Assembly: GCF_026240635.1 (NCBI RefSeq)
Contig: NZ_CP110848.1
Location: 1,800,501 to 1,864,500, forward strand
Source of the DNA: Trichothermofontia sichuanensis B231
GTDB lineage: Bacteria > Cyanobacteriota > Cyanobacteriia > B231
Direction: 5' to 3'
Length of the DNA: 64,000 bases
Shown one piece after another: positions 6,219 to 63,896 of the stretch. The number at the start of each line of letters is the position of its first letter. Positions within the stretch are counted from its first letter, which is position 1. Position numbers and translations under genes: made by a program. Under the pieces are notes generated by a model. It was not told where the DNA came from, did no database searches, and worked only from the letters and a program-made list of their open reading frames with translations.

Positions 6219-7865
6219 ATGACAGACCCAAAACTTGGTCGCATTCTCGAAAATCGCTATCAGTTAGTAGAACTGGTGGGTAGGGGGGCAATGGGCCGGG
6301 TATACCGTGCCCAACATGTCCTCCTACGGGGAACATTTGCTGTTAAGTTCTTAGCCCAAACGCTCTTGAATGCGCCCATGCGCGATCGCTTCTTTGCTGA
6401 GGCACGGGTCTGCGCCCTCCTGGGGCAGAAAAGCATTCATATTGTCCGGGTAATTGACTATGGGGTAGATGAGGATGAAATCCCCTTCTACGTTATGGAA
6501 TACCTGGACGGGCGTAACCTCACCGATATCATTAACGAGTCTCCCCTAACTCTCCCGCGGTTTCTGAATCTCACCCACCAGATTTGCCTGGGTCTACAGT
6601 GCGCCCATCAGGGGGTCCCGATTGATGATGCTGGGGACGTTCGCCCCATCATTCATCGGGATATCAAGCCACGTAATATCGTGGTGGTACAGGACAATAC
6701 CCTGGGGGAGTTGGTCAAGATCCTGGACTTTGGCATTGCCACCCTGTTGCAGGGTGAAGGGGGTAACAATCCCCAGGCCAATAAGTTTATGGGCACCCTG
6801 GCCTATTCCTCACCGGAACAAATGGATAGCCAGGAATTGGATGGTCGCTCGGACATCTACAGCCTGGGCATTGTCATGTTCCAGATGTTGACGGGCAAAC
6901 TGCCGATTCACACCCCCGGACGCACCTTTAAGGATTGGTACCACGCCCACAAAACCCAGGTGCCGCGATCGTTTCAGGAGGTTGACCCTAACCTGAAGCT
7001 CCCCAAGGCACTGGAATCCCTGATCATGGACTGCTTGGCTAAGTCGCCTGCCGATCGCCCCCAAAATATCGATGCGGTGATTGATGCCCTGCGGCCTCTG
7101 CTCCAGCGCTATGGCAATGGTCAGGAAATTGGACGACGAATTGGCGATGCCCTCTCACGGGTTCCTGTCGTCGCCGAGTCGTTGGTGGAAAAGGCGGCCA
7201 CCTCGGATGAGGCATCGGCAACCGAAACCAATGGCGCCACCCCCATCGATCATGCGGTCAAGGTGGTGTATTCCACTTCAGAGCGGCTTTCGGCCTTTGA
7301 AGCCTTTTGGCGTCAACTAACGTGGCCCAGTGGAATGCCGATTGCCCAGATTGTCTTTTCCAAAAATATCGAAACCCCGAAAGGGCGTATGGCTACCCTG
7401 TGGACCATGTTGTCTGAGGACGAAATTAACTATCTGCGTAACAGTAGCCTTTACAACCACTTCTATAAAAACTTCCTGGGGATCATGTCCCCCCACCCCA
7501 CTGTCCTGTGGATTACGGCCCTTTACAACCGTTTTCGTCATCAGGAGCGCGGCCCGCGTTGGTTCAGTTGTTATCTCGATTTACAATCCCCTACCGGTCA
7601 AGAAACTGTCCGCCTTTTGACTGAGCGGGGGACTTATCGCCTGTTGTTTTTTAGCTTGGAACCGCCGCACACCTGTCTCCATGCGGTTAAACTCAAGATT
7701 CACCCCTACCAATGCCAACTGCTCCAACGGTGGGTACTGACGGGTACCACCTGGAAGTCGATCGGCAATTTCAACGAAAGTAAGGAAATCCTTAAGCAAG
7801 AGTTGGAAAAACTCAAGCCTAGGGTTCAGACGGATTTGGAAAATGCCAGTAGATTAAGGGAGTAG
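6219..7865 (+). CDS. Serine/threonine protein kinase with a novel C-terminal domain
   Basis: 548 residues. Kinase domain at about residues 13-290 with all key parts: glycine loop GRGAMGRVYRA, the lysine in FAVKFL, HRDIKPRN (catalytic loop), DFGIA (Mg binding), GTLAYSSPEQ (activation loop end) and DGRSDIYSLGIVMFQMLTG. It is a PknB/Hanks-type kinase. Residues 350-548 form a separate unit I cannot assign (SAFEAFWRQLTWPSGMPIAQ ... GPRWFSCYLDLQSP ... LLFFSLEPP), ending in a Lys/Glu-rich helix. No transmembrane segment, so soluble. It converges on pyk with only three bases between the stop codons. Phosphothreonine-reading FHA proteins encoded at 34.6-39.8 kb are possible, unproven, partners. Confidence 0.9.
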   Translation: MTDPKLGRILENRYQLVELVGRGAMGRVYRAQHVLLRGTFAVKFLAQTLLNAPMRDRFFAEARVCALLGQKSIHIVRVIDYGVDEDEIPFYVMEYLDGRNLTDIINESPLTLPRFLNLTHQICLGLQCAHQGVPIDDAGDVRPIIHRDIKPRNIVVVQDNTLGELVKILDFGIATLLQGEGGNNPQANKFMGTLAYSSPEQMDSQELDGRSDIYSLGIVMFQMLTGKLPIHTPGRTFKDWYHAHKTQVPRSFQEVDPNLKLPKALESLIMDCLAKSPADRPQNIDAVIDALRPLLQRYGNGQEIGRRIGDALSRVPVVAESLVEKAATSDEASATETNGATPIDHAVKVVYSTSERLSAFEAFWRQLTWPSGMPIAQIVFSKNIETPKGRMATLWTMLSEDEINYLRNSSLYNHFYKNFLGIMSPHPTVLWITALYNRFRHQERGPRWFSCYLDLQSPTGQETVRLLTERGTYRLLFFSLEPPHTCLHAVKLKIHPYQCQLLQRWVLTGTTWKSIGNFNESKEILKQELEKLKPRVQTDLENASRLRE

Positions 7866-33503: not shown

Positions 33504-34520
33504 ATGTCTTTACCAGAATCCAGTCGCTTCCCCCTCACCGAGGATCTCACCATTTGTCGCGTCCTGAATGGCATGTGGCAGGTCTCCGGTGCCCACGGTC
33601 CGATCGATGCTGCAGCGGCGATCGCGGCCATGTTTCCCTACGTTGATGCGGGTTTTACCACCTGGGACCTCGCCGATCACTATGGACCAGCGGAGGATTT
33701 TATGGGTGAATTTCGCCAACGCCTGCGGACGGAACGGGGCGAAGCCGCCCTCGACCATTTGCAAGCGTTTACCAAATGGGTGCCGCGCCCAATGCCTATG
33801 ACCCGCCGGGTGGTTGAGGAAAATATTCAACGCTCGCGGCAACGCATGGCGGTTGATAGCCTGGATTTACTGCAATTCCACTGGTGGGATTATAGCGATC
33901 GTAACTATCTAGAAGCCTTACGCATCCTCACGGATCTCAAAACCGAGGGCTGGATCAAGCATCTTGCCTTAACCAATTTTGATACAACCCACACCAAAGC
34001 GATCCTAGATCACGGGTTCCCGATCGTCTCCAACCAGGTGCAATTTTCACTGATCGATCGGCGTCCTCTGAAAAAAATGGTGCCGCTATGTCAACAGTGC
34101 GATGTGAAATTGCTGGCCTATGGTACCCTCTGCGGGGGACTACTGTCAGAGAAATATCTCGGTGTTGCTGAACCAAGCCGTACCAAACTAAACACGGCTT
34201 CCCTGCGAAAATACAAAAACATGATCGATGCCTGGGGGAGTTGGGAACTGTTCCAACAACTGCTAGTGGCTTTGCAGGCAATTGCCCAGAGACATGGCGT
34301 TACCATTCCGAATGTGGCCGTGCGCTATGTCCTGGAACAACCCGCAGTCGCGGGGGTCATTGTGGGGGTGCGGTTGGGCGTTTCTGAGCATTTAGCAGAA
34401 AATGCCCAGGTGTTTACATTTAGTCTCGATCGCGAAGATTACGAGCGGCTAGAGAGTGTGTTGGAAAAATCCCAGGATCTCTATCGCTTGATTGGCGACT
34501 GTGGGGATGAATACCGCTGA
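33504..34520 (+). CDS. Aldo/keto reductase
   Basis: 338 residues from ATG 33504 (33480 also possible). N-terminal CRVLNGMWQVSGAHGPID, YVDAGFTTWDLADHYGPAED with the catalytic Asp and Tyr of the family, AFTKWVPRP with the Lys, DLLQFHWWDY with the His, LALTNFDTTH, and SNQVQFSLIDRRP. Near the C-terminus VRYVLEQPAVAGVIVGVRLG binds NADPH. The tetrad is therefore complete. The last residues before the stop (DEYR) lie in the first of four 13-bp tandem repeats. Confidence 0.9.
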   Translation: MSLPESSRFPLTEDLTICRVLNGMWQVSGAHGPIDAAAAIAAMFPYVDAGFTTWDLADHYGPAEDFMGEFRQRLRTERGEAALDHLQAFTKWVPRPMPMTRRVVEENIQRSRQRMAVDSLDLLQFHWWDYSDRNYLEALRILTDLKTEGWIKHLALTNFDTTHTKAILDHGFPIVSNQVQFSLIDRRPLKKMVPLCQQCDVKLLAYGTLCGGLLSEKYLGVAEPSRTKLNTASLRKYKNMIDAWGSWELFQQLLVALQAIAQRHGVTIPNVAVRYVLEQPAVAGVIVGVRLGVSEHLAENAQVFTFSLDREDYERLESVLEKSQDLYRLIGDCGDEYR

Positions 34521-34557
34521 TGAATACCGCTGATGAATACCGCTGATGAATACCGCT
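34506..34557. repeat. Four perfect 13-bp tandem repeats at a convergent gene junction
   Basis: GATGAATACCGCT is repeated four times with no mismatch. The TGA of the aldo/keto reductase begins in copy 1 and ends in copy 2, and the TAG of the leftward penicillin-binding protein overlaps the end of copy 4. Confidence 0.92.
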
Positions 34558-37255
34558 AACGGAACCGAGCTAAAACTTGGGCCATATAATCTCCCCAAAG
34601 TTTAGCCGCGATCGCGCTACTACCCGATGTGGGTGAATTATCATCATTACCCAGCCAGATGCCAGTTGCAATGCCGGCAGGGATCCCATCGCGAATCGCA
34701 ACCTCCGGGAGATAGCCCACAAACCAGGTATCGACATTATCATTAGTCGTCCCGGTTTTCCCCGCTGCTCCGGCACCGATATTGGCATTGCGTCCGGTAC
34801 CGGATTGCACCACCCCCTGTAATAAGGCGGTCATCGTGGTCGCCACCTCTGCCGCTACTCCCGGTTGGTTCGCCTCAGCCGTGTTGGCAAAATCGTAGAT
34901 CACCCGGCAACTTTGGGCATCATTGCGATCGCGGCAATCGCCACTATCCAGTACCCGCTGAATCGCATGGGGCCGGTTATACACCCCGCCATTGGCAAAG
35001 GTGGCCACGGCCCCCGTCATCTCCAACACCGTAACCTCACTCTGTCCCAGGGCTAAACCGGGTACTGGCTTTAACGGAGACTCAATTCCCAAGCGTTGAG
35101 CCAGCCGCACCACCCGGTTTAATCCCACGGCCTGGGCAATGCGCAACGCCACCACATTCTCCGACTGGGCCATCCCCTGGTACATATCCACCGCCCCACG
35201 ACTGCGCTGACACCCGGAAAAAGCTTGCCCCTGCCAGGTCAACGGCGCACAGGAAAAGGTTTCACTGGGCGACATCCCCTGCTCCAGAGCGGCGGCATAG
35301 ACCAAAACCTTAAACGTCGATCCCGGTTGGCGGAGGGCCTGGGTCGCCCGATTAAACTGGCTGTCGGCATAGTCTACCCCGCCCACCATTGCCATAATGG
35401 CTCCCGTTTGCGTGTCGATCGTCGCGATCGCCCCCTGGGAAAACCCCAGCGCCGCTCCCTCAGTATTGATCAATGCTTTCAGCGCCGTTTCGGCTTCGGT
35501 TTGGATCTGGGGATCGAGGGCCGTCTCAATAATAAAATTGCCTTCCTGGGCCAGTTGGCTTCCCAAGAGACGCTCCAGTTCGGCAAAGACGTGATCGTAA
35601 AAATAGGGAGCGATCGTGCTTTCCAACTGCTCCCGGGCACGGGGGTTAATTTCAATGCGCGATCGGCGGGCACGCTGGGCCTCGGCTTCGGTAATAAACC
35701 CCTGGCTGAGCATCCGGCTGAGGACGCGATCGCGCACCCGGACCGCCGCTTCATAGTCTCGAATCGGGTTGAAACTATTGGGGGCTGGCAAAATCCCCAC
35801 CAGTGTCGCCGCCTCCGACAGGGTGAGGTCACGGGCAGATTTACCAAAGTAAAACTGGGCCGCATCCTCAAAGCCATAACTGCCGCTGCCCAGGTACACG
35901 CGGTTCAGGTAGGTGCGCATCAGGAAGTCTTTGCTGTAGACCATTTCCAGCTGCAGGGCCACGATCGCCTCCCGGATCTTGCGCCCTGCCGAGTCTGCTG
36001 TGCCTACGTAATCGCGGAAGAGACTGCGGGCTAACTGCTGGGTCACCGTACTGCCTCCCTCCTGGACCGAGCCACTGCGCAGATTGGTGACCACCGCCCG
36101 CAGAATGCCGATCGGGTCTACGCCCAAATGCCAATAAAACCGGGTGTCTTCGGACGCAATGACCGCATTGGGGAGATAGGCCGGGAAATCCGATAACCGG
36201 GCAAACTCAATATGGGCACGGTTGTAGGGTTCCCGCAGGGGCGTCACGTTGTCACGGGCATAGACAATCACGGGACCCTGGATGGAATGGGGCAGGGGCC
36301 GCACGGAGAATTTTTGCCATTCCAGACCAATCCACAAAGCCAGCAGCAGGCTTAGCCCTGTAAAACCATAGATCCCATAACGCAGGACTCGAATATAGGG
36401 ATCAAAACAGGTGAGCGTCACCACATCCTGAAGGTCCGGGGGACCCAGAGTGAAGCGATCGCCATGCCGGAGTCGATGTTTACCCGTAAGCCGCCGCCGC
36501 CCCCGATAGGTCCCATTCGTGGACCCAGGGTCCTCCACCCAGAACCAGTTGGGATGTTGGGGATCGCGATCGAAGGTCAGATGACATTCACTAACCAATC
36601 TGTTTTGTACCTGGATATCCAGCGCCGACGCAGCCGATGGTTGGCTGCGCCCCAACGTGTAGTGATCGCCCGCCAGGGGATAGGGAGCCGGGTGCTGATC
36701 CGGGTGTTGGGGGTCATACACCCGCAGCTTGAGCACCCGGGCACGGGGCTTGAGCCTTTGCGAGATTTCCGTCAAACCCAGAACGGCAGTTTGGAGCGGT
36801 GGCAGCCCGCCCTGGGGTACCGTGTAGGTCAGGGTAACCCCCTCCGCCAGATCGGGAGGGCCAAGGGTAAAGCGATCGCCGTGTCGCAACCGTTGCCGGG
36901 TTACCCGTTGTTTACCCTGATAAAGGCCGTTTTGTGACTGTTCATCTTTAATCCAAAACCAATCCGGTCGCTGCGGATCGCGTTCAATCGTGAAATGGCG
37001 TTTGCTCACCATTGTATTGCGGATTTTAATATCACAGGAACTACTCCGTCCGCCGGTATAGTAGTCCCCGACTAAATGGTAGGGATTGCTGTGGGCACCA
37101 GGATTCTGGGGATCGTCGATACGTAGTTCGGGAGCTTGCGCGTTGGGTTTTAGCTTGAGGTGGGATAAATTGCCAGGAACGACCGTCTGCACAAAATTTG
37201 TCAGGGTGGTCATGATCGGGTTTGGCTTGCGGGGAGGAGGAGGCGTTGGCGTCAT
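34556..37255 (-). CDS. Class A penicillin-binding protein with two N-terminal FHA domains
   Basis: 899 residues (ATG 37255, or ATG 37213). Two FHA domains at about 50-140 and 180-275: GGRSSSCDIKIRN, SKRHFTIERD and DEQSQNGLYQG in the first, LGRSQPSAASALDIQV, SECHLTFDRD and DPGSTNGTYRG in the second. One membrane segment YGIYGFTGLSLLLALWIGLE at about 293. Transglycosylase: ASEDTRFYWHLGVDPIGILR and GGSTVTQQLARSLF. Transpeptidase: QPGSTFKVL (active Ser and Lys), MAQSENVVAL (SxN) and AGKTGTTNDNVDTWFVGYLP. It makes and cross-links peptidoglycan outside while FHA domains inside the cell read phosphothreonine. It is 21 bases downstream of the FHA-GGDEF-EAL gene. Confidence 0.94.
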   Translation of the reverse strand: MTPTPPPPRKPNPIMTTLTNFVQTVVPGNLSHLKLKPNAQAPELRIDDPQNPGAHSNPYHLVGDYYTGGRSSSCDIKIRNTMVSKRHFTIERDPQRPDWFWIKDEQSQNGLYQGKQRVTRQRLRHGDRFTLGPPDLAEGVTLTYTVPQGGLPPLQTAVLGLTEISQRLKPRARVLKLRVYDPQHPDQHPAPYPLAGDHYTLGRSQPSAASALDIQVQNRLVSECHLTFDRDPQHPNWFWVEDPGSTNGTYRGRRRLTGKHRLRHGDRFTLGPPDLQDVVTLTCFDPYIRVLRYGIYGFTGLSLLLALWIGLEWQKFSVRPLPHSIQGPVIVYARDNVTPLREPYNRAHIEFARLSDFPAYLPNAVIASEDTRFYWHLGVDPIGILRAVVTNLRSGSVQEGGSTVTQQLARSLFRDYVGTADSAGRKIREAIVALQLEMVYSKDFLMRTYLNRVYLGSGSYGFEDAAQFYFGKSARDLTLSEAATLVGILPAPNSFNPIRDYEAAVRVRDRVLSRMLSQGFITEAEAQRARRSRIEINPRAREQLESTIAPYFYDHVFAELERLLGSQLAQEGNFIIETALDPQIQTEAETALKALINTEGAALGFSQGAIATIDTQTGAIMAMVGGVDYADSQFNRATQALRQPGSTFKVLVYAAALEQGMSPSETFSCAPLTWQGQAFSGCQRSRGAVDMYQGMAQSENVVALRIAQAVGLNRVVRLAQRLGIESPLKPVPGLALGQSEVTVLEMTGAVATFANGGVYNRPHAIQRVLDSGDCRDRNDAQSCRVIYDFANTAEANQPGVAAEVATTMTALLQGVVQSGTGRNANIGAGAAGKTGTTNDNVDTWFVGYLPEVAIRDGIPAGIATGIWLGNDDNSPTSGSSAIAAKLWGDYMAQVLARFR

Positions 37256-37276
37256 AGTCGTAGCACAGGATGGGCA

Positions 37277-39757
37277 TTACCACGTAGGATTGGCGGTTAG
37301 CAAGGCTTCCACTTCGTGACTGGGTAAGGGATGCGAGAACAAATAACCCTGACCATACTCACAGTTGCGTTCCCGTAAGTATTGCAGTTGTTCGATCGTC
37401 TCGATCCCCTCGGCAACGACGCTAAGTTCCAGGTTATGTGCCAACATGATAATCGTTTGGGTGATTTCGCTCCCGGTTTCACCATGACTATCAGTGTGGG
37501 GGCTGATTGCATTGACAAAAGAACGATCGACTTTAAGGATATCGATCGGGAAACGATGCAAATAACTGAGGGAGGAGTACCCGGTCCCAAAATCATCGAT
37601 ACATAGTTGTAGATTCAAGCGCTTAAGGGCAACAAAAATATCTTTAGAAAGTTGGATATTTTCCATAATCGTCCCTTCAGTAATTTCCAGGTTAAGTGTA
37701 CCGGGGGCCATACCCGTTTCCGCCAGGATTTTCCCAACTTTTTCAACCAGTTGCGGTTGGGAGAATTGCTGGCTGGCTAGGTTAACACTCATGGTTAGGG
37801 GCGAGGCTTTGGGAAACTGCTGTTGCCATCGTTGGGCTTGGGTACAGGCTTCCCACAGGAGCCAATCCCCCATAGCAATGATTAATCCAGTTTCCTCCGC
37901 CAGGGTAATAAATTCATTAGGCGGAACCAGCCCGCGTTGGGGGTGCTGCCAGCGAATCAGGGCCTCAAACCCCGTAATGTGGCCAGTTGCCAGGGAAACA
38001 ATGGGTTGGTAGTACAGGAGAAATTCCTGGCGTTCTACGGCTCGCCGCAGATCATTATCGAGTTGCAACAGGGCCACTGCACGATCGTGCATCTGTTGAT
38101 CAAACAGTTCATAGCGGGCACGCCCCAAAGACTTAGCGTGATACATCGCCGTATCTGCGTCACGCAACAATTCCTCTGGTAGACGGTAGCCGGTTGTACT
38201 GAGGGCAATCCCTACACTTAAGGTAACAAATACTTCCTGATGATCGAGATAAAAGGGAACGGACAACTCCCGCTGCAAACGTTCAGCTAGGGCCGTTGCA
38301 TCCTCGGTGCTGTTAATATCCTCCAGAAGGATGGCAAATTCATCCCCCCCCAAGCGAGCCACCGTATCCCCAGAACGCAGGCAGGCTTCTAATTTGCGTG
38401 AAATTGCAATCAGAAGTTGATCGCCCACAATATGACCGAGGCTATCGTTAATCACCTTGAAGCGATCGAGGTCAATAAATAACACAGCAAAGAGGTAATC
38501 ATCCCGTCGTTTAGCCAGTTCGATCGCGTGGGAGAGGCGATTCATGAACAGATTCCGATTGGGTAAACCCGTCAAGGCATCATGTAAGGCATCGTAGAGT
38601 AATTGTTTCTCAAAACCTTTGCGATCGGTAATATTACGAATAATGGCTAGCGCCTCATCTTGAGTAATCGTGACAATCCGCGCTTCATAGAATAGGATAC
38701 TACCATCCACCAGAGATTCATACTCAAACACCTCAGTACGGTTAGTTTGTAATGTCCGTCGCACATAACGAATCATTTGTTGAGCCGCAGGTGTTGGCAA
38801 AATTTGATAAATATTCTGGCCTACGAAATTAGCAGATGAACTTTGTAAAGGATGCCCTTTAGGCACTTTAAAGTCTAGAATGATACCACTGGAGTTCAAA
38901 TGTAGCATCAGATCTGGGATGGCATCCAGTAAGGCACGATTCTTTGCTTCACTTTTACGCAGGGCTGCTTCTGCCTTTTTATAATCGGTGATGTCAACAA
39001 CATAACTACGGACTAAATCACTTTCATAAATGTAGTGGACCAATTGTTGAAAGCAGCGATCCTTGAGGTAGATTTCACGTTCAAAGTGTTTTTGTTCAGG
39101 GTAATGTTTATCTACGGGTAGGATTCCAGCCAAGAGCGGATGCTTCAAAAGTAGGGTTTGTATATCTGGGAAAACTTGAATAGCAGCGGGATTTAGATAG
39201 GTTAATTTTCCCTTCATGCTGATTTCAATCACTGGATTGGGATTGAGTTCTGGGAAGGAAGCTAATCGAATGAGTGAAGTTTCATAAACTTCTTTTAATT
39301 CAGCATGGTCAGTAATCAGTGTTTTCTCTAAGACGTTTTCTTCGTCTTCGTCAATGTGGCTCAGCAGATCACTGATATCACCACTTTCTAAGATTTTAGG
39401 ATCAACTGCAGTGTAGGTTGTATAGTAACGTGCTTCAATATCTTTGCCAAAGCTAATAACATCTCCATGCTTGAGGTCATGCGAGACTCGTGATCGGCCA
39501 TTAATGCGTAAACCATTGGTACTTCGCTTACCTTGTAAATCGCCATCAATAATACGAAAAAGATAGTTATTAGAATTGGGGACAGTGACCCGCAACAGGA
39601 TAGCATGTTGGCGTGAGACCCAACGGGATTTTAAGGGAATCGAGTTATTCGGATCCCGCCCGATCGAATAGGTAGAGGACTCCAGTGGAATCACGCGCTT
39701 ACCCTGAGTATCTGAAATCACTAGGTAATGGCAAATTTGCTGCTGCTCACCATTCAT
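37277..39757 (-). CDS. FHA-PAS-PAS-GGDEF-EAL cyclic-di-GMP enzyme
   Basis: 826 residues. FHA at 1-110 (STYSIGRDPNNSIPL, SRWVSRQHAILL, STNGLRINGRSRV). Two PAS-like units follow, about 155-265 (FPELNPNPVIEISMKGKLTY) and 270-385 (LLDAIPDLMLHLNSSG). GGDEF domain with an intact active site VARLGGDEFAILL and an upstream RSGD that fits an inhibitory I-site. EAL domain intact: HITGFEALIRWQHP, LEITEGTIMEN, CIDDFGTGYSSLSYL. Both synthesis and breakdown of c-di-GMP are therefore possible. No membrane segment. It is the first gene of a two-gene unit with the FHA penicillin-binding protein. Confidence 0.94.
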   Translation of the reverse strand: MNGEQQQICHYLVISDTQGKRVIPLESSTYSIGRDPNNSIPLKSRWVSRQHAILLRVTVPNSNNYLFRIIDGDLQGKRSTNGLRINGRSRVSHDLKHGDVISFGKDIEARYYTTYTAVDPKILESGDISDLLSHIDEDEENVLEKTLITDHAELKEVYETSLIRLASFPELNPNPVIEISMKGKLTYLNPAAIQVFPDIQTLLLKHPLLAGILPVDKHYPEQKHFEREIYLKDRCFQQLVHYIYESDLVRSYVVDITDYKKAEAALRKSEAKNRALLDAIPDLMLHLNSSGIILDFKVPKGHPLQSSSANFVGQNIYQILPTPAAQQMIRYVRRTLQTNRTEVFEYESLVDGSILFYEARIVTITQDEALAIIRNITDRKGFEKQLLYDALHDALTGLPNRNLFMNRLSHAIELAKRRDDYLFAVLFIDLDRFKVINDSLGHIVGDQLLIAISRKLEACLRSGDTVARLGGDEFAILLEDINSTEDATALAERLQRELSVPFYLDHQEVFVTLSVGIALSTTGYRLPEELLRDADTAMYHAKSLGRARYELFDQQMHDRAVALLQLDNDLRRAVERQEFLLYYQPIVSLATGHITGFEALIRWQHPQRGLVPPNEFITLAEETGLIIAMGDWLLWEACTQAQRWQQQFPKASPLTMSVNLASQQFSQPQLVEKVGKILAETGMAPGTLNLEITEGTIMENIQLSKDIFVALKRLNLQLCIDDFGTGYSSLSYLHRFPIDILKVDRSFVNAISPHTDSHGETGSEITQTIIMLAHNLELSVVAEGIETIEQLQYLRERNCEYGQGYLFSHPLPSHEVEALLTANPTW

Positions 39758-40375: not shown

Positions 40376-40882
40376 ATGAATTGGCACATTTGGCGAGACT
40401 GTTTGGCGCTTCAGCCGCATCCGGAGGGGGGCTATTATTGTGAATCGTATCGATCGCCTACCCGGATACCCCTACCCCAGGGCGAACGGCATTGCAGCAC
40501 GGCAATTTATTACCTATTGGTAGGCACCCAGATCTCCCGATTACACCGCCTTCGTTCTGATGAGGTTTGGCACTTTTACCAGGGGGTGGGCCTCTGGGTG
40601 CATGAGCTAACTCCCACTGGGGAGCATCATGTCCATCGGTTGGGCATGGATCTGGCGCAAGGCTATCGGCCTCAGGTGGTGATTCCAGCAGGGCACTGGT
40701 TTTGTGCTGAGGTGGCTCGCGGTTCAGAGGAACAAGGCGATCGCGATCGGGCTTGTTTAGTGGGTTGTACGGTTAGTCCTGGGTTTGAATTTGCGGATTT
40801 TGAGATCGGCGATCGGGCAACCCTATTAGCCCACTATCCCCAGCACCAAGCCTTGATCGAGCGCTTCACGCCCAATCCCTAG
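40376..40882 (+). CDS. DUF985 cupin family protein
   Basis: 168 residues. LALQPHPEGGYYCESYRSPT is the family start, followed by STAIYYLLVGTQISRLHRL, SDEVWHFYQGVGLWVHELTP, HRLGMDLAQGYRPQVVIPAG, HWFCAEVARG and CTVSPGFEFADFEIGDRATL. The DUF985 cupins are small beta-barrels that bind a metal or sugar nucleotide; function not established. Length is typical. A family B repeat follows the gene. Confidence 0.9.
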   Translation: MNWHIWRDCLALQPHPEGGYYCESYRSPTRIPLPQGERHCSTAIYYLLVGTQISRLHRLRSDEVWHFYQGVGLWVHELTPTGEHHVHRLGMDLAQGYRPQVVIPAGHWFCAEVARGSEEQGDRDRACLVGCTVSPGFEFADFEIGDRATLLAHYPQHQALIERFTPNP

Positions 40883-58045: not shown

Positions 58046-60289
58046 CTACTGAGCACCCATTGAGGGGGGGTGTTCCTCCGGGCTGGGGGGTTGGCGGTGG
58101 TAATAGCGATAGTAGTAGCCACCGTAGGAATATCCTGCGGCAGCGACCCGCTTCACCCCATTGGCAATCATGCCAATCAGCGGGATTTGCGCCGTTTTGA
58201 GATTACTGATCACACGGGTTAGACCCGATCGCTTCGTCTTCCCCAGGCCCATCACGACCACTAGGCCACTGGTATAGGGGGCTAGCACTTGGGCATCCGA
58301 GAATCCCAACAGTGGCGGCGTATCATAAATCACGACATCAAACTGACGCTCAAACGTCTGCACAATGTCCTGCATCCGCCGCGACCCCAATAACCGCGAG
58401 GGATCACGGGGAGAGGGGCCTGCCGTCAGCACAAACAGATTTTTCTCCTGGGGAATTGACTGCACCATCTCGTTGGGCGGTGCTTCCGTGGTCAGCAGTG
58501 TACTCAGGCCCTGATCATTGGGCAGATTGAGCACGCGATGCAGCTGGGGCCGCCGCAGATCCGCATCGACCAGCAGAATCCGCTTTTCCATGACTGCTGC
58601 TGCCTGGGCCAGGTTCAGGGCTACCGTTGACTTGCCTTCTGCCGGAGCCGCTGAGCTAATCACTAAGGACCGGATCGGGCTGAGATTCCCTAAGAGCGAG
58701 ATCACCATCCACAGCGATCGAAACGCCTCCAGAAATGGCACCAGCTTGTAATGCCGATAGCCGTTCTCCCGTCCCAGTCCTCGGTGTGGCTCCCGCGTCG
58801 TCGGTGGGGTGGGCAAATCCTCTAGGTGGATTAACCGCTGTTCCTGGGCCAAGTGATCACTGAAAGGAATCACTCCTAATAGCGGTACCCGCGTTATCTG
58901 TTGCAGATCCTCTAGCGTCTGGATCGCCTCGTCCAGCTTCTCTGCCAGAAACACGGCTGCCCCCCCGGCCAACAGACCCGCGATCGCCCCCAGAAGTAAC
59001 TGCCGGGGGATATTCGGCTCCACCGGACGGCGGGGGACCTCCGGCGTTACCAACAGTTGCCAGGGGACCTCCCGTTGGGCAGCATCCAGCAGCAACCGCT
59101 CACGGGCTGCTAGTAACCGGGTCAGTCCCTCCGTCGCCAGTGTCAGTTCCCGTTGTAGATCCGTGTTAAACCGAAACAGTACCGGAAGTTGCTCCAACTG
59201 TTGCCGCAGGCGACGTTCGACCGCGAGTAGGGTTTGCTGCCGACTCTGGAGGACCTGGTACTCATGGGCTGCCACCGCTAATTGTCCCCCCAGGGTACGC
59301 TCGGCTTCCTGGTAAAGCTGGGGTAAGAGATTCGCCCGCTGGCGTTGTAGTGCCCGAATCGGGGGACTGTTGGCCCGCGATCGCGCCAACTCGGCGGCAA
59401 TCTGCCCATCCACGGTGCGCAACTGCTCTAATAGGTTCTGATAGAGGGAATCCGATCGCAGGGTTGCGATCGCTGTTTCGGGCTGACTCAGACTGGCCAA
59501 GCGTTGCCGAGCCGCTTGCAGTTGGAGTTGCACCTCCAGCCGTTGACTTTCCAGCGTACTCAGTTGGGTTTCCAGTTCCGTCGCCTTGGTGCTGGGATCG
59601 ATCAAGGCATACTGTTGCCGGAGAGTTTGGAGCGTCGCCTGTAACCGATTCACCCGCGCCTGCATCAGCGGGATCTGGGCTTCCACAAACTGAATCCCCT
59701 GGCTCAGCGAGGTTTGCCGTTCGAGCAGACTGTGGCGCAGGTACCCTTGGGCCAACTGATCCAACACCGCTTTAATCTGCTGTGGGTCTGGGTGACGGTA
59801 GCGAATTTCCAGGATCTTGGTTTCCTGAAGCCGGACGATCGTCAACCCCTGGCTCAACGTCTCATAGGTTACCTGGGGATATTGGGTTTGGAGCGTTTGT
59901 AGAATCGGTCCCAAAATTTCCGGACTGCGCAACACCTGGATCTGCGTTTCATAGTCCAGGCGATCGCGGCGTCCCACACTGCCATTGGTCATCTCACTCA
60001 AGATTTGGGGCAACGGGTCCTCATTCGCCACGGGTTCGACCAACAAGCGAAACTGGCCCTCATACTGGGGCACAATCTGGGCACCTCGATACCAAACCAC
60101 CGCACTCACACAGGCGGCCACGCTCACCAGCAGCAATATCCGCCGCCGTAGGGCCTGCAAGATCTGGGTGAGATCCACGTCATTGGCGATCGGCGGTCCT
60201 AGGGGTCCCCCAGTCCCCGGCGGTGGCCAATTAGGCGGGGGCTGGGGAATCCCATTTTTTTCGGGTAAGGAAGGGTTGGAGTAGGTCAT
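58046..60289 (-). CDS. Polysaccharide biosynthesis tyrosine autokinase (Wzc-like)
   Basis: 747 residues. N-terminal Wzz chain-length domain with a membrane helix at about 52-70 (RRRILLLVSVAACVSAVVWY), a long coiled-coil middle (about 190-400, ARVNRLQATLQTLRQQYALI), a second helix LLLGAIAGLLAGGAAVFLAE, then the BY-kinase domain: Walker A AAPAEGKSTVALNLAQ, Walker A' RILLVDADLRRPQLHRVL, Walker B FDVVIYDTPPLLGF. The C-terminus is tyrosine-rich (GYSYGGYYYRYYH), the autophosphorylation cluster. Controls polymer length and export. Third gene of the leftward cluster, 146 bases after the Wza-like gene. Confidence 0.94.
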   Translation of the reverse strand: MTYSNPSLPEKNGIPQPPPNWPPPGTGGPLGPPIANDVDLTQILQALRRRILLLVSVAACVSAVVWYRGAQIVPQYEGQFRLLVEPVANEDPLPQILSEMTNGSVGRRDRLDYETQIQVLRSPEILGPILQTLQTQYPQVTYETLSQGLTIVRLQETKILEIRYRHPDPQQIKAVLDQLAQGYLRHSLLERQTSLSQGIQFVEAQIPLMQARVNRLQATLQTLRQQYALIDPSTKATELETQLSTLESQRLEVQLQLQAARQRLASLSQPETAIATLRSDSLYQNLLEQLRTVDGQIAAELARSRANSPPIRALQRQRANLLPQLYQEAERTLGGQLAVAAHEYQVLQSRQQTLLAVERRLRQQLEQLPVLFRFNTDLQRELTLATEGLTRLLAARERLLLDAAQREVPWQLLVTPEVPRRPVEPNIPRQLLLGAIAGLLAGGAAVFLAEKLDEAIQTLEDLQQITRVPLLGVIPFSDHLAQEQRLIHLEDLPTPPTTREPHRGLGRENGYRHYKLVPFLEAFRSLWMVISLLGNLSPIRSLVISSAAPAEGKSTVALNLAQAAAVMEKRILLVDADLRRPQLHRVLNLPNDQGLSTLLTTEAPPNEMVQSIPQEKNLFVLTAGPSPRDPSRLLGSRRMQDIVQTFERQFDVVIYDTPPLLGFSDAQVLAPYTSGLVVVMGLGKTKRSGLTRVISNLKTAQIPLIGMIANGVKRVAAAGYSYGGYYYRYYHRQPPSPEEHPPSMGAQ

Positions 60290-60435
60290 GGGGGCTGGGG
60301 ATTTGCGCTTTTGGATTTGAGCTTTTAGGTGAGGGTGGGTCGCTTGCGGGTTTGGCGGGTGAAGGAACGAGGCCAGGACACCCCAAACTCGTCACTCTTT
60401 GCCTACTCCCCTACGCCCCGGCTTGCCCCCTCTCC

Positions 60436-62385
60436 TCAGAACAATCGCAGTAAATTCAGCAGGAAAAGCGTAGGGGCTGTGACTTGACTAATGGTGTCAG
60501 CGGTCCGGGCGAAGCGCGATCGCGTCACCAACACCACATCATTGGGTTGCAGGATCGGATTCGTGGCTTCGTTCACCCCATCAGCCAGATCGACAGCGAT
60601 CGTGCGGCGCTGGATGGTCCCATTGGGTTGCAGGCGAATTAACTCCACAGCTTGGCGGTTGGCCCGTCCATTGACGAAGCCACCGGCACGCAGCACCGCC
60701 TGGTTCAGGGGGGTATTGGGCGTGATTTCCACCACCCCCGGTCGCACCACCTCACCGATGACATTGACGCGAATCGTTGCGGGCGCAAAGTTAGCTTCTG
60801 CTAGTTGCGATCGCTGGGTCGGAGTGAGGGTCGGCGCGGGGGCAATGCGAATCATGTCGCCATCCCGCAGGGTGATGTCCTGGGCCAAATTACTGGACTG
60901 TACTAAATCCCACAGGTTGACCTCGATGACCTGCTCCAGTCCATTTGCCTGGGGTCGGCGAATTTCTACCCGCCGCAGATCGGCAGTTTGGGTAATGCCC
61001 TCGGCCTGCCGGATGGCCTGGGTGAGGGTGGGGAAGGCCCCGGTCTCGGTGGGTTTGAACTGGTAGCTGCCAGGACGGTTGATTTCGCCACTCAAGGCAA
61101 CAGTGACCGGTCTGGCTTGCTCCAAAACCAGGGTGGTCAATGGCTCTACAAAGAACTGACGATAGCGATCGCTAATCAGCGCACTGGCCTGATCCAGCGT
61201 GAGTCCAGCTACAGCGAGCCGACCAATTCGGGGCAAACTCAGGGTGCCATCTACCATCACCTGATAAGACTTGCTATATTCCGGCACGTTGAAAATATCG
61301 ACAAAAACGCGATCGCCCGGTCCCAGGGTATAGTCCGGGGCGATGCTAGGGGTTAGGGATTGGGCGATGGAAGTCGCCTTTGAAGACGCGACGCGAACGG
61401 GTGAGGGTGGCGTGTGGCGAGGGGAAGGCGAGTCGGGAGTGGTCGCCCTCTTTTCAGCGATGGTGGGAGCAGTATCCGCCAGCCATCCCGACTCAGGGGG
61501 GGGAACCGGGATGTCTATAACGGCTTTAGGGAAGTCCTCCTCTGGTGTTCCTACCAGAGAGGGGGGGGATGTTGTGGTTGCGACCGCCGGTTGGGGTGGG
61601 GATGATACGGCATCGACCTGTTCGTAAGCGGTAACCGCTTGGAGCGGGGCCAATTGCAGGGCTGAGCCAGTCTCTGGGGATAGGAGGGCGGCAACCAAAA
61701 TCCCGGCGTTATGAAGGTGAGTCTCTGGAGTAGGGGCGGCTGTGGCAGGGCTTGGGGTAGCGGCCAGCGGGCTATTGGGGAGGGGGGCGACAGAGTCATT
61801 GTTTGACCCATTGTCAATCACAGGTAATCCTGGCTCTGCGAAGCTAATATCCCCAGTCGCTCTCCCCGGTTCTATGCCCTGATTCTCAGGATTGCCTCCC
61901 CCGATACTGGCCACCTCAGCCGTCATCATCGTCTCTAACGGGCTGGCACTGAGCGCTTGAACGGAGGTATGGATTAGGACCGGATCGGGAGAGACTTGGG
62001 CGGGCACCGGCGGGGGGACCTGGGCAAAGACCGCTGAGAGGGATGGAGTCTGGGGTAATTCGGGGATGGGATAGGGTTGATTACTGGCTACCAACAGTGC
62101 CTCAGCGTCCACCAATGCCAACTCCGGCGGCACCGCTTCTGGGATAGCGATTTGGGTATGGATGCCGCGAGAGCTTGCGGTCAGGGAGTTAGCCGGAGCA
62201 GTGGGAGGCGTCTTCGGGGGTATCCGGGGTGAGGGTGTGGTTGGGCCGATCGGCACTTGAGGACCTTGGGATAGGGCTGCTGGGTCCCGCAACAGGTGGC
62301 CACCAGAAAAACTGGCGACGGACAGCGCCGCCATCGGGGGAAAATACCGTAAAAAGTCTTGCATCTCCATCGTGCACCACCTCAT
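60436..62385 (-). CDS. SLBB/poly-export protein (Wza-like) with long N-terminal extension
   Basis: 649 residues. Residues 1-345 are Pro/Ser/Thr/Ala-rich and low complexity (LAATPSPATAAPTPETHLH). The export domain begins at about 350: DYTLGPGDRVFVDIFNVPEY, LSLPRIGRLAVAGLTLDQAS, VTVALSGEINRPGSYQF (SLBB), VNVIGEVVRPGVVEITPNTP (second SLBB), ending LLNLLRLF. The signal near the start (FLRYFPPMAALSVASFSGGH) is weak and has no clear lipobox, unlike E. coli Wza. It forms the outer channel for exopolysaccharide. Its ATGA overlaps the stop of the glycosyltransferase gene, so the two are translationally coupled. Confidence 0.9.
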   Translation of the reverse strand: MRWCTMEMQDFLRYFPPMAALSVASFSGGHLLRDPAALSQGPQVPIGPTTPSPRIPPKTPPTAPANSLTASSRGIHTQIAIPEAVPPELALVDAEALLVASNQPYPIPELPQTPSLSAVFAQVPPPVPAQVSPDPVLIHTSVQALSASPLETMMTAEVASIGGGNPENQGIEPGRATGDISFAEPGLPVIDNGSNNDSVAPLPNSPLAATPSPATAAPTPETHLHNAGILVAALLSPETGSALQLAPLQAVTAYEQVDAVSSPPQPAVATTTSPPSLVGTPEEDFPKAVIDIPVPPPESGWLADTAPTIAEKRATTPDSPSPRHTPPSPVRVASSKATSIAQSLTPSIAPDYTLGPGDRVFVDIFNVPEYSKSYQVMVDGTLSLPRIGRLAVAGLTLDQASALISDRYRQFFVEPLTTLVLEQARPVTVALSGEINRPGSYQFKPTETGAFPTLTQAIRQAEGITQTADLRRVEIRRPQANGLEQVIEVNLWDLVQSSNLAQDITLRDGDMIRIAPAPTLTPTQRSQLAEANFAPATIRVNVIGEVVRPGVVEITPNTPLNQAVLRAGGFVNGRANRQAVELIRLQPNGTIQRRTIAVDLADGVNEATNPILQPNDVVLVTRSRFARTADTISQVTAPTLFLLNLLRLF

Positions 62386-63698
62386 GAATGTTTAGGTCGT
62401 ATCGCCTTACCCGACTGGGTTTTGGCTATAACCCGGTGCAGCAGGTGATAGTAGTCCTGGACAATGTGTTCTGGGGAGAAATGGGTTTCCAGGTATTGCC
62501 GCCCCGATCGCCCTAACTCAGCCGCCAGCGCACGATCGTGGTTCAACTGTTGAATAAAACGGGCCAACCCTTGACTATCTCCATGCCGAAAGGTTTGACC
62601 ACAATTCGCCTCGCGGAGTAGATCATTGAGATAGGAGTCACTGTCGCAGATAGCCGCGATCGGCCTACCGGCTGCCAAGGCTGAATAGAGCTTACTGGGC
62701 GCAACTAATCCCTCCATGCGCGGCCCAATACTCACAATCGACAGATCACAGGCAGTCAGGGAATAGGGCAACACCGCCTTATCCTGGTAGGGCAGAAACA
62801 GAACTTGTTCTAATTGCCAGTCCTTGGCCTGCTGCTGACAGGCTTGGTATTGGGTACCGCCTCCAATAAAGACAAATTTAATCGGCTCTTGACGGAGTAA
62901 TTTTGCAGCGTCTAGCAGGGTTGCTAAATCATGGCAGCGTCCCGTATTACCCGAGTAGAGGACGACAAAGGGATCAACCAGATTGTGGATTTGGGCAAAC
63001 CAGTTCGCCTGTTTCGCGATCGGTTGAATCAGAAATGGATCAGCCCAATTATGAATGACTGTAATTTTAGGTGCGAGTTCGGGATGATTGCTTATCAAAC
63101 GCTGTTTCATGGTTTCACTGAGAACGACGATCGCTGCCGCCCGCTCCCAAATTCGTTGGTTCAACCCATGCCAAAACTGAATCAATGGGCTGTCCTCTGG
63201 TAGCACACCTAACTCAGTAATAATGTCGGGGTAAAGATCATAGATCAGGCAAACATAGGGCAAACCAAACAGGCGGTGAATGCCATAGCCAAGGACTTGG
63301 AGAAAGGGCGGAGATGTCGTTAACAACAATACCTGGGTTTGATGCGCATGACGCAGTAAATGTAACGTTGATCGCAAACAAAAAAGAACACCACTCAACG
63401 CCTTGCCCCGGATACGCTGGGGCCAGAGATAAATACTGCGAGTACGACGGACACTCACGCGATCGATCGTCTCGGCTGGGGAAGCCGTACTATCCTGAAA
63501 AGCATATCCCGGTTGCCCAGTAAAAATTCGCACATCAATCCCCTGCAGACTAAGGCGGTGAGCCAATTCTTCAATCAATTGGCCCGTTGGTGCATAGTCT
63601 GGTGGAAAGAACTGCGTCACGATTAATAACTTGAGCGACGCCGTCGGATCAGGATTGCACCAACCCTTGCACATCTGCACACTAAAGCCAGTACTCAT
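62382..63698 (-). CDS. GT4 family glycosyltransferase (WcaI/WbuB-like)
   Basis: 438 residues from ATG 63698 (frame open to 63761). LLIVTQFFPPDYAPTGQLIE is the donor-domain start of the group; VYDLYPDI-type LIYDLYPDIITELGVLPEDS; AAIVVLSETMKQRLI; KITVIHNWADPF; FVVLYSGNTGRCHDLATLLD; FVFIGGGTQYQACQQQAKDW; SIVSIGPRMEGLVAPSKLYS with the E-x7-E like motif; ALAAGRPIAAICDSDSYLND. A retaining sugar transferase of GT-B fold acting on a lipid-linked acceptor. First gene of the leftward exopolysaccharide row as seen here. Confidence 0.92.
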   Translation of the reverse strand: MSTGFSVQMCKGWCNPDPTASLKLLIVTQFFPPDYAPTGQLIEELAHRLSLQGIDVRIFTGQPGYAFQDSTASPAETIDRVSVRRTRSIYLWPQRIRGKALSGVLFCLRSTLHLLRHAHQTQVLLLTTSPPFLQVLGYGIHRLFGLPYVCLIYDLYPDIITELGVLPEDSPLIQFWHGLNQRIWERAAAIVVLSETMKQRLISNHPELAPKITVIHNWADPFLIQPIAKQANWFAQIHNLVDPFVVLYSGNTGRCHDLATLLDAAKLLRQEPIKFVFIGGGTQYQACQQQAKDWQLEQVLFLPYQDKAVLPYSLTACDLSIVSIGPRMEGLVAPSKLYSALAAGRPIAAICDSDSYLNDLLREANCGQTFRHGDSQGLARFIQQLNHDRALAAELGRSGRQYLETHFSPEHIVQDYYHLLHRVIAKTQSGKAIRPKHS

Positions 63699-63896
63699 AG
63701 CGTTATCGAAAACAACGGAAACGCGCTCCCACCAAAGGTGGGGAAGACAGAGTAGAGGCAACCTCGTTTAGGATTTACATCCGCTCTGTTCAAGATCAGG
63801 ATAGTTTGCAAATCAGGAGAGAGGAAATAGGAAACAGGAAACAGGGACGCCCCCTGCTTGACTGACCCATCTTTGCCCCTTATGAGGGGACAGGGG

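Follow-up and report, generated by a model that had tools for sequence, protein, structure and literature searches.

Tandem FHA domains on a class A penicillin-binding protein encoded beside an FHA-bearing c-di-GMP enzyme in Trichothermofontia sichuanensis B231, and the distribution of FHA-bearing wall synthases among cyanobacteria

Two genes lie in tandem on the minus strand of a 64,000-nucleotide stretch of the Trichothermofontia sichuanensis B231 genome (contig NZ_CP110848.1, positions 1,800,501 to 1,864,500; hereafter the window). The first in the direction of transcription (37277-39757), recognized from its open reading frame, Pfam matches and motifs, encodes a soluble c-di-GMP enzyme of 826 aa with FHA, PAS-like, GGDEF and EAL regions; the second (34556-37255) encodes a class A penicillin-binding protein (PBP) of 899 aa with tandem FHA domains. 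The coordinates of the open reading frames confirm the positions, strands and 21-nt spacer (37256-37276) given in a preliminary description of this DNA. Because the flanking genes, an aldo-keto reductase gene ending at 34520 and a cupin gene starting at 40376, run in the opposite direction, the pair can form a two-gene unit at most. Its close, co-directional spacing is consistent with co-transcription; a promoter and terminator scan of the spacer yielded nothing informative, with site counts near those expected by chance.

The PBP scores 530.6 bits against the NCBIfam model PBP_1a_fam (TIGR02074; cut-off 508.75) and contains a Transgly (glycosyltransferase) domain (35711-36220; Pfam, 189.9 bits) and a transpeptidase domain (34706-35434; Pfam, 128.3 bits). 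Its motifs are complete: EDTRFYWHLG (369), STFK (646), SEN (698) and KTGT (833), the last three belonging to the transpeptidase. Of the two FHA domains, FHA1 (36860-37060) was located by Pfam, a genome-wide FHA search and alignment, and FHA2 (36443-36661) by the genome-wide search and alignment. Hydropathy predicts a single membrane segment (residues 293-311 approximately; 36323-36379) that follows both FHA domains and precedes the Transgly domain, and since the membrane segment comes after them, the FHA domains are predicted to be cytoplasmic; the catalytic domains would correspondingly be periplasmic. The earlier identification of a class A PBP with two FHA domains is thus borne out by the Pfam domains and intact motifs; its placement of those domains in the cytoplasm agrees with their order along the protein, the orientation itself being a prediction.

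FHA-bearing PBPs are widespread: with the FHA region as the query, a match is found in 295 of 390 cyanobacterial genomes, approximately three quarters. Tandem FHA domains, on the other hand, were rejected as a general feature of these proteins. Exactly one FHA domain is present on the PBP of all 29 relatives examined, nearly all of the matches listed cover approximately one FHA length of the two-FHA query, and the doubled domain is unique to this genome within the sample. Identity between FHA1 and FHA2 is 56%, whereas the FHA domains of other PBPs are on average 47% and 46% identical to these two; therefore, the simplest reading is an internal duplication specific to this lineage. PBPs with an FHA domain and FHA-GGDEF-EAL proteins are existing architectures, of which the tandem FHA arrangement and the pairing of the two genes are new variants. 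No paper on cyanobacterial FHA-PBPs was found in the open-access literature searched, where class A PBPs fused to a phospho-reader appear to be unstudied; the domain combination should be visible in domain databases.

The c-di-GMP enzyme begins with an FHA domain (residues 30-104; 39446-39670; Pfam, 48.5 bits) whose GR, SRQH and STNG pocket is intact, and ends with a GGDEF domain (residues 390-547; 38117-38590; 169.7 bits) and an EAL domain (residues 568-810; 37328-38056; 246.7 bits). The catalytic motifs comprise an RxxD I-site (RSGD) with the GGDEF signature (461), EALIR (598), NLEITE, DDFGTGYS and AEGIE. All of the key residues that had been called intact in the two genes are present, in the catalytic motifs and in all three phosphothreonine pockets. 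The FHA, GGDEF and EAL assignments of the preliminary description are upheld by Pfam, whereas its PAS domain corresponds to a marginal PAS_4-like stretch (residues 308-380; 38618-38836) that scores 21.2 bits, below the curated cut-off of 23.1. Pfam matched no GAF domain, and hydropathy gave no obvious membrane segment. The N-terminal FHA-PAS module defines a cyanobacterial family with members in 103 of 390 genomes; among 80 loci, it is fused to GGDEF-EAL in 45 and to histidine kinases in 32. Other genomes encode two or three FHA-PAS proteins in tandem (G331:C204:20670-26448, G305:C75:2081-5411 and G388:C1:3197748-3201302), and a cyanobacterial FHA-PAS gene on a contig labelled Candidatus Gracilibacteria SU_1_2 (L081) nests with Hydrococcus, probably on a misbinned contig.

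Conservation of the gene pair was rejected. The pair occurs in no other cyanobacterium examined, an outcome that the preliminary description had itself named as counting against its proposal. None of the 80 loci with the closest FHA-PAS modules, which were drawn from 84,980 species' genomes in a set that may leave out records of or very near the source genome, has an FHA-PBP within up to 8 kb on either side; a more distant PBP-like match is present at two of them (28% and 42% identity). Conversely, within approximately 8 kb on either side of the PBP in 20 families, the c-di-GMP gene and all other window genes that were tried are missing, and no c-di-GMP gene lies upstream of the PBP in a further 79 and 20 loci with shorter upstream stretches. 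The closest genomes returned by the search for relatives belong only to the same class.

Gene order around FHA-PBPs is poorly conserved in cyanobacteria, and the commonest identified neighbour is lspA. In three separate families with ordinary FHA-PBPs, a signalling gene is found directly upstream: a Hanks kinase-TPR gene at 27 nt (L178:8656-13470), a Hanks kinase gene at 3 nt (L182:5786-10177), and a gene for a PAS-HisKA-HATPase-FHA-receiver hybrid histidine kinase that overlaps the PBP gene by 4 nt (L179:5762-10182). In total, a kinase or FHA gene is directly upstream in approximately four of 119 loci. This enrichment has a Poisson probability of 0.0008-0.02, calculated post hoc against a roughly guessed expectation of 0.4-1.0; paralogous PBP loci, a weak control, gave none in 35 scorable loci, which is indistinguishable from four in 119. 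The idea that cyanobacteria as a rule keep a kinase gene immediately upstream of the PBP gene was rejected, such a kinase being rarer there than lspA.

The pairing in T. sichuanensis may be an accident of gene shuffling, with a c-di-GMP enzyme that acts elsewhere and is unconnected with the PBP. A plausible alternative target of c-di-GMP would be the exopolysaccharide genes at 58046-63761 of the window (Wzz/AAA, polysaccharide export and glycosyltransferase), approximately 18 kb from the c-di-GMP gene. The fluid gene order near the PBP, the absence of the window neighbours beside it in 20 families and the scattering of FHA-PAS relatives of the enzyme over unrelated genomic places all argue for such an accident; the co-directional 21-nt spacing and the independent recurrence of kinase and FHA genes directly upstream of the PBP in other lineages argue against it. 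It is a serious contender, although its chances are put below even.

The three FHA domains of the pair score 59.1, 54.5 and 53.3 bits in the genome-wide search (cut-off 20.7), and alignment shows the G-R, SxxH and S-x-N-G residues of the phosphothreonine pocket in each of them. Loss of the Arg/Ser/His set, the other finding that had been named in advance as telling against the proposal, is thus not observed. The genome (4.44 Mb, one contig) encodes 19 Hanks kinases and eight FHA domains above the Pfam cut-off, in seven genes. Elsewhere in it, an FHA-kinase gene directly adjoins a gene for a double-zinc-ribbon FHA protein (L366:1591-4070), and an FHA-GAF-nucleotide cyclase gene adjoins a kinase-TPR gene (L360:1870-5662). 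The Hanks-type kinase suggested as the partner of the pair (6219-7865, plus strand; Pfam) lies approximately 27 kb away; no evidence singles it out, and the other 18 have an equally good claim.

The preliminary proposal of joint control is considered unlikely: in it, a single Hanks kinase, perhaps the one at 6219, would phosphorylate one partner to which both proteins bind through their FHA domains, and would so steer wall synthesis and c-di-GMP jointly. In its favour are the intact pockets of two genes only 21 nt apart, the recurrence of an FHA partner beside a PBP in the form of the overlapping hybrid histidine kinase gene, and the small number of FHA genes: because there are just seven, adjacency of two by chance is unlikely. 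Nevertheless, no other sampled genome has the pair, the genome offers 19 kinases, a common ligand for the three pockets is a presumption, and the surroundings of the pockets differ (an insertion in FHA2, SQNG in FHA1).

Beyond this locus, not one of the seven pocket residues (G, R, S, H, S, N and G) varies among 103 distinct PBP FHA domains, which are approximately 46% identical overall, and the GR, SxxH and NG pattern is kept even in the diverged PBP FHA domains of one family of 81 genomes (f2). Since exactly the residues of the phosphothreonine pocket are retained while the rest diverges, a role as a spacer only would be unexpected.

The distribution of FHA-PBPs is also linked to that of kinases. 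Among 59 relatives, all three genomes without a Hanks kinase also lack an FHA-PBP, whereas four genomes have kinases and no FHA-PBP: G056 and three Gloeobacter-like genomes (f13). The Gloeobacter-like genomes have 14-15 kinases each, which counts against a kinase-linked explanation of the FHA-PBP. In the 81-genome family, kinase matches are of two kinds. The main Hanks kinase and the first type of FHA-PBP are both present in 29 genomes and both absent from 51; the kinase never occurs alone, and the PBP does so in one genome that is 89% complete. Fisher's test gives 4e-21, a value that ignores relatedness and could be produced by a few joint losses; the co-occurrence may reflect such shared losses. 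The main kinase could not be convincingly matched to an ortholog in T. sichuanensis, the best candidate (L355; 2833000-2838000) being 27-36% identical over the kinase domain.

A second class A PBP of the same family, 36-39% identical to the window PBP, carries an FHA domain in the loci read and, in all eight cases among the matches listed, is approximately 2 kb from a kinase match. Three of these loci were examined (L387:734-7211, L389:2481-7049 and L390:2992-9134), and the PBP has an FHA domain in each. In L387 and L390, the two that were scanned for vWA and PP2C, genes for a kinase, a vWA protein and a PP2C phosphatase form a tight row divergent to the FHA-PBP gene; in L390, a gene for an extra FHA protein was recognized as well. 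The kinase of this cassette has C-terminal cysteine pairs that resemble zinc ribbons. Taken across cyanobacteria, near-absolute conservation of the PBP pocket and its apparent genomic linkage to Ser/Thr kinases are supported.

Some FHA domains act without phosphothreonine, and the PBP FHA could likewise be a phosphate-independent docking surface or structural spacer, but total conservation of the phosphothreonine-contacting residues, extending to the diverged family, and co-occurrence with kinases make this very improbable.

The account that is favoured, and thought reasonably probable, is that the window PBP is a local version of a widespread cyanobacterial class A wall synthase with a cytoplasmic FHA domain that binds a phosphothreonine partner, which recruits or switches the synthase. 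The partner would be a Hanks-type kinase or a protein phosphorylated by one, and its binding would recruit, localise or gate the synthase at the inner membrane. Duplication of the FHA domain in this lineage may have created a two-pocket platform with higher avidity or the capacity to join two partners. The gene directly upstream, for a bifunctional c-di-GMP enzyme of the CdgSH kind that brings an FHA-PAS sensor of its own, would have come to sit there in this lineage, probably on the same transcript; its product may be co-expressed and read the same signal as the PBP, or be a mere neighbour. Phosphopeptide binding, control of the synthase, co-transcription and coupling of c-di-GMP to the wall are all deduced from sequence, and the coupling, which is based on adjacency in one genome, is speculative.

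A bolder version of the favoured account seems improbable: that cyanobacterial wall synthesis is governed by way of a class A PBP to which a phosphothreonine switch, fed by Hanks kinases, is directly fused, with a second FHA domain and an FHA-bearing c-di-GMP enzyme in one operon here, such that c-di-GMP turnover and wall synthesis would assemble on one phosphorylated partner.

The interest of these observations is in the general, testable claim about FHA-PBPs rather than in the gene pair itself. For the question of how kinases act on cyanobacterial growth, an invariant phosphothreonine pocket on a widespread class A PBP offers a concrete target for mutation in model strains. The 81-genome family, where the majority of genomes with any kinase possess just one main Hanks kinase alongside an FHA-PBP, may be a simple system for studying a kinase-synthase link.

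Comparable proteins and pathways are known for both halves of the pair. FHA-GGDEF-EAL hybrid proteins of the same domain kind are described in Microcystis aeruginosa in a single-species survey, the consulted portions of which draw no link to wall synthesis (PMC7063779). CdgSH (All1175) of Anabaena sp. PCC 7120 is an FHA-PAS-GAF-GGDEF-EAL protein that is bifunctional with dominant phosphodiesterase activity (PMC8682488). The window enzyme resembles CdgSH in being soluble, in its order of an FHA domain, sensor domain(s), a GGDEF domain with an I-site and an EAL domain, and in its intact catalytic motifs; by analogy, it would probably be a net hydrolyser of c-di-GMP. Two differences are that the GAF domain between PAS and GGDEF in CdgSH, which a Scytonema protein (L077) also has, was not detected in the window enzyme, and that a tree built from FHA-PAS modules, without All1175 itself, puts the window enzyme on a long branch of uncertain position, apart from the Nostocales proteins that share the CdgSH architecture. 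The PBP shares transglycosylase and transpeptidase domains with PBP1A-family class A PBPs, scoring above the curated cut-off, and differs from them by the added N-terminal FHA, predicted to be cytoplasmic, one copy in cyanobacteria generally and two in the window. The kinase-vWA-PP2C row beside the second FHA-PBP of the 81-genome family presumably corresponds to cassettes of the TerY-P type, in which vWA, kinase and PP2C genes are combined; no such cassette is present at the window locus. In mycobacteria, FHA proteins and PknB control peptidoglycan synthesis (FhaA-MviN, FipA), and phosphothreonine-reading FHA domains likewise pass Ser/Thr kinase signals to wall synthesis; there the FHA domain resides on a separate adaptor, whereas in the cyanobacterial PBP it is fused to the synthase.
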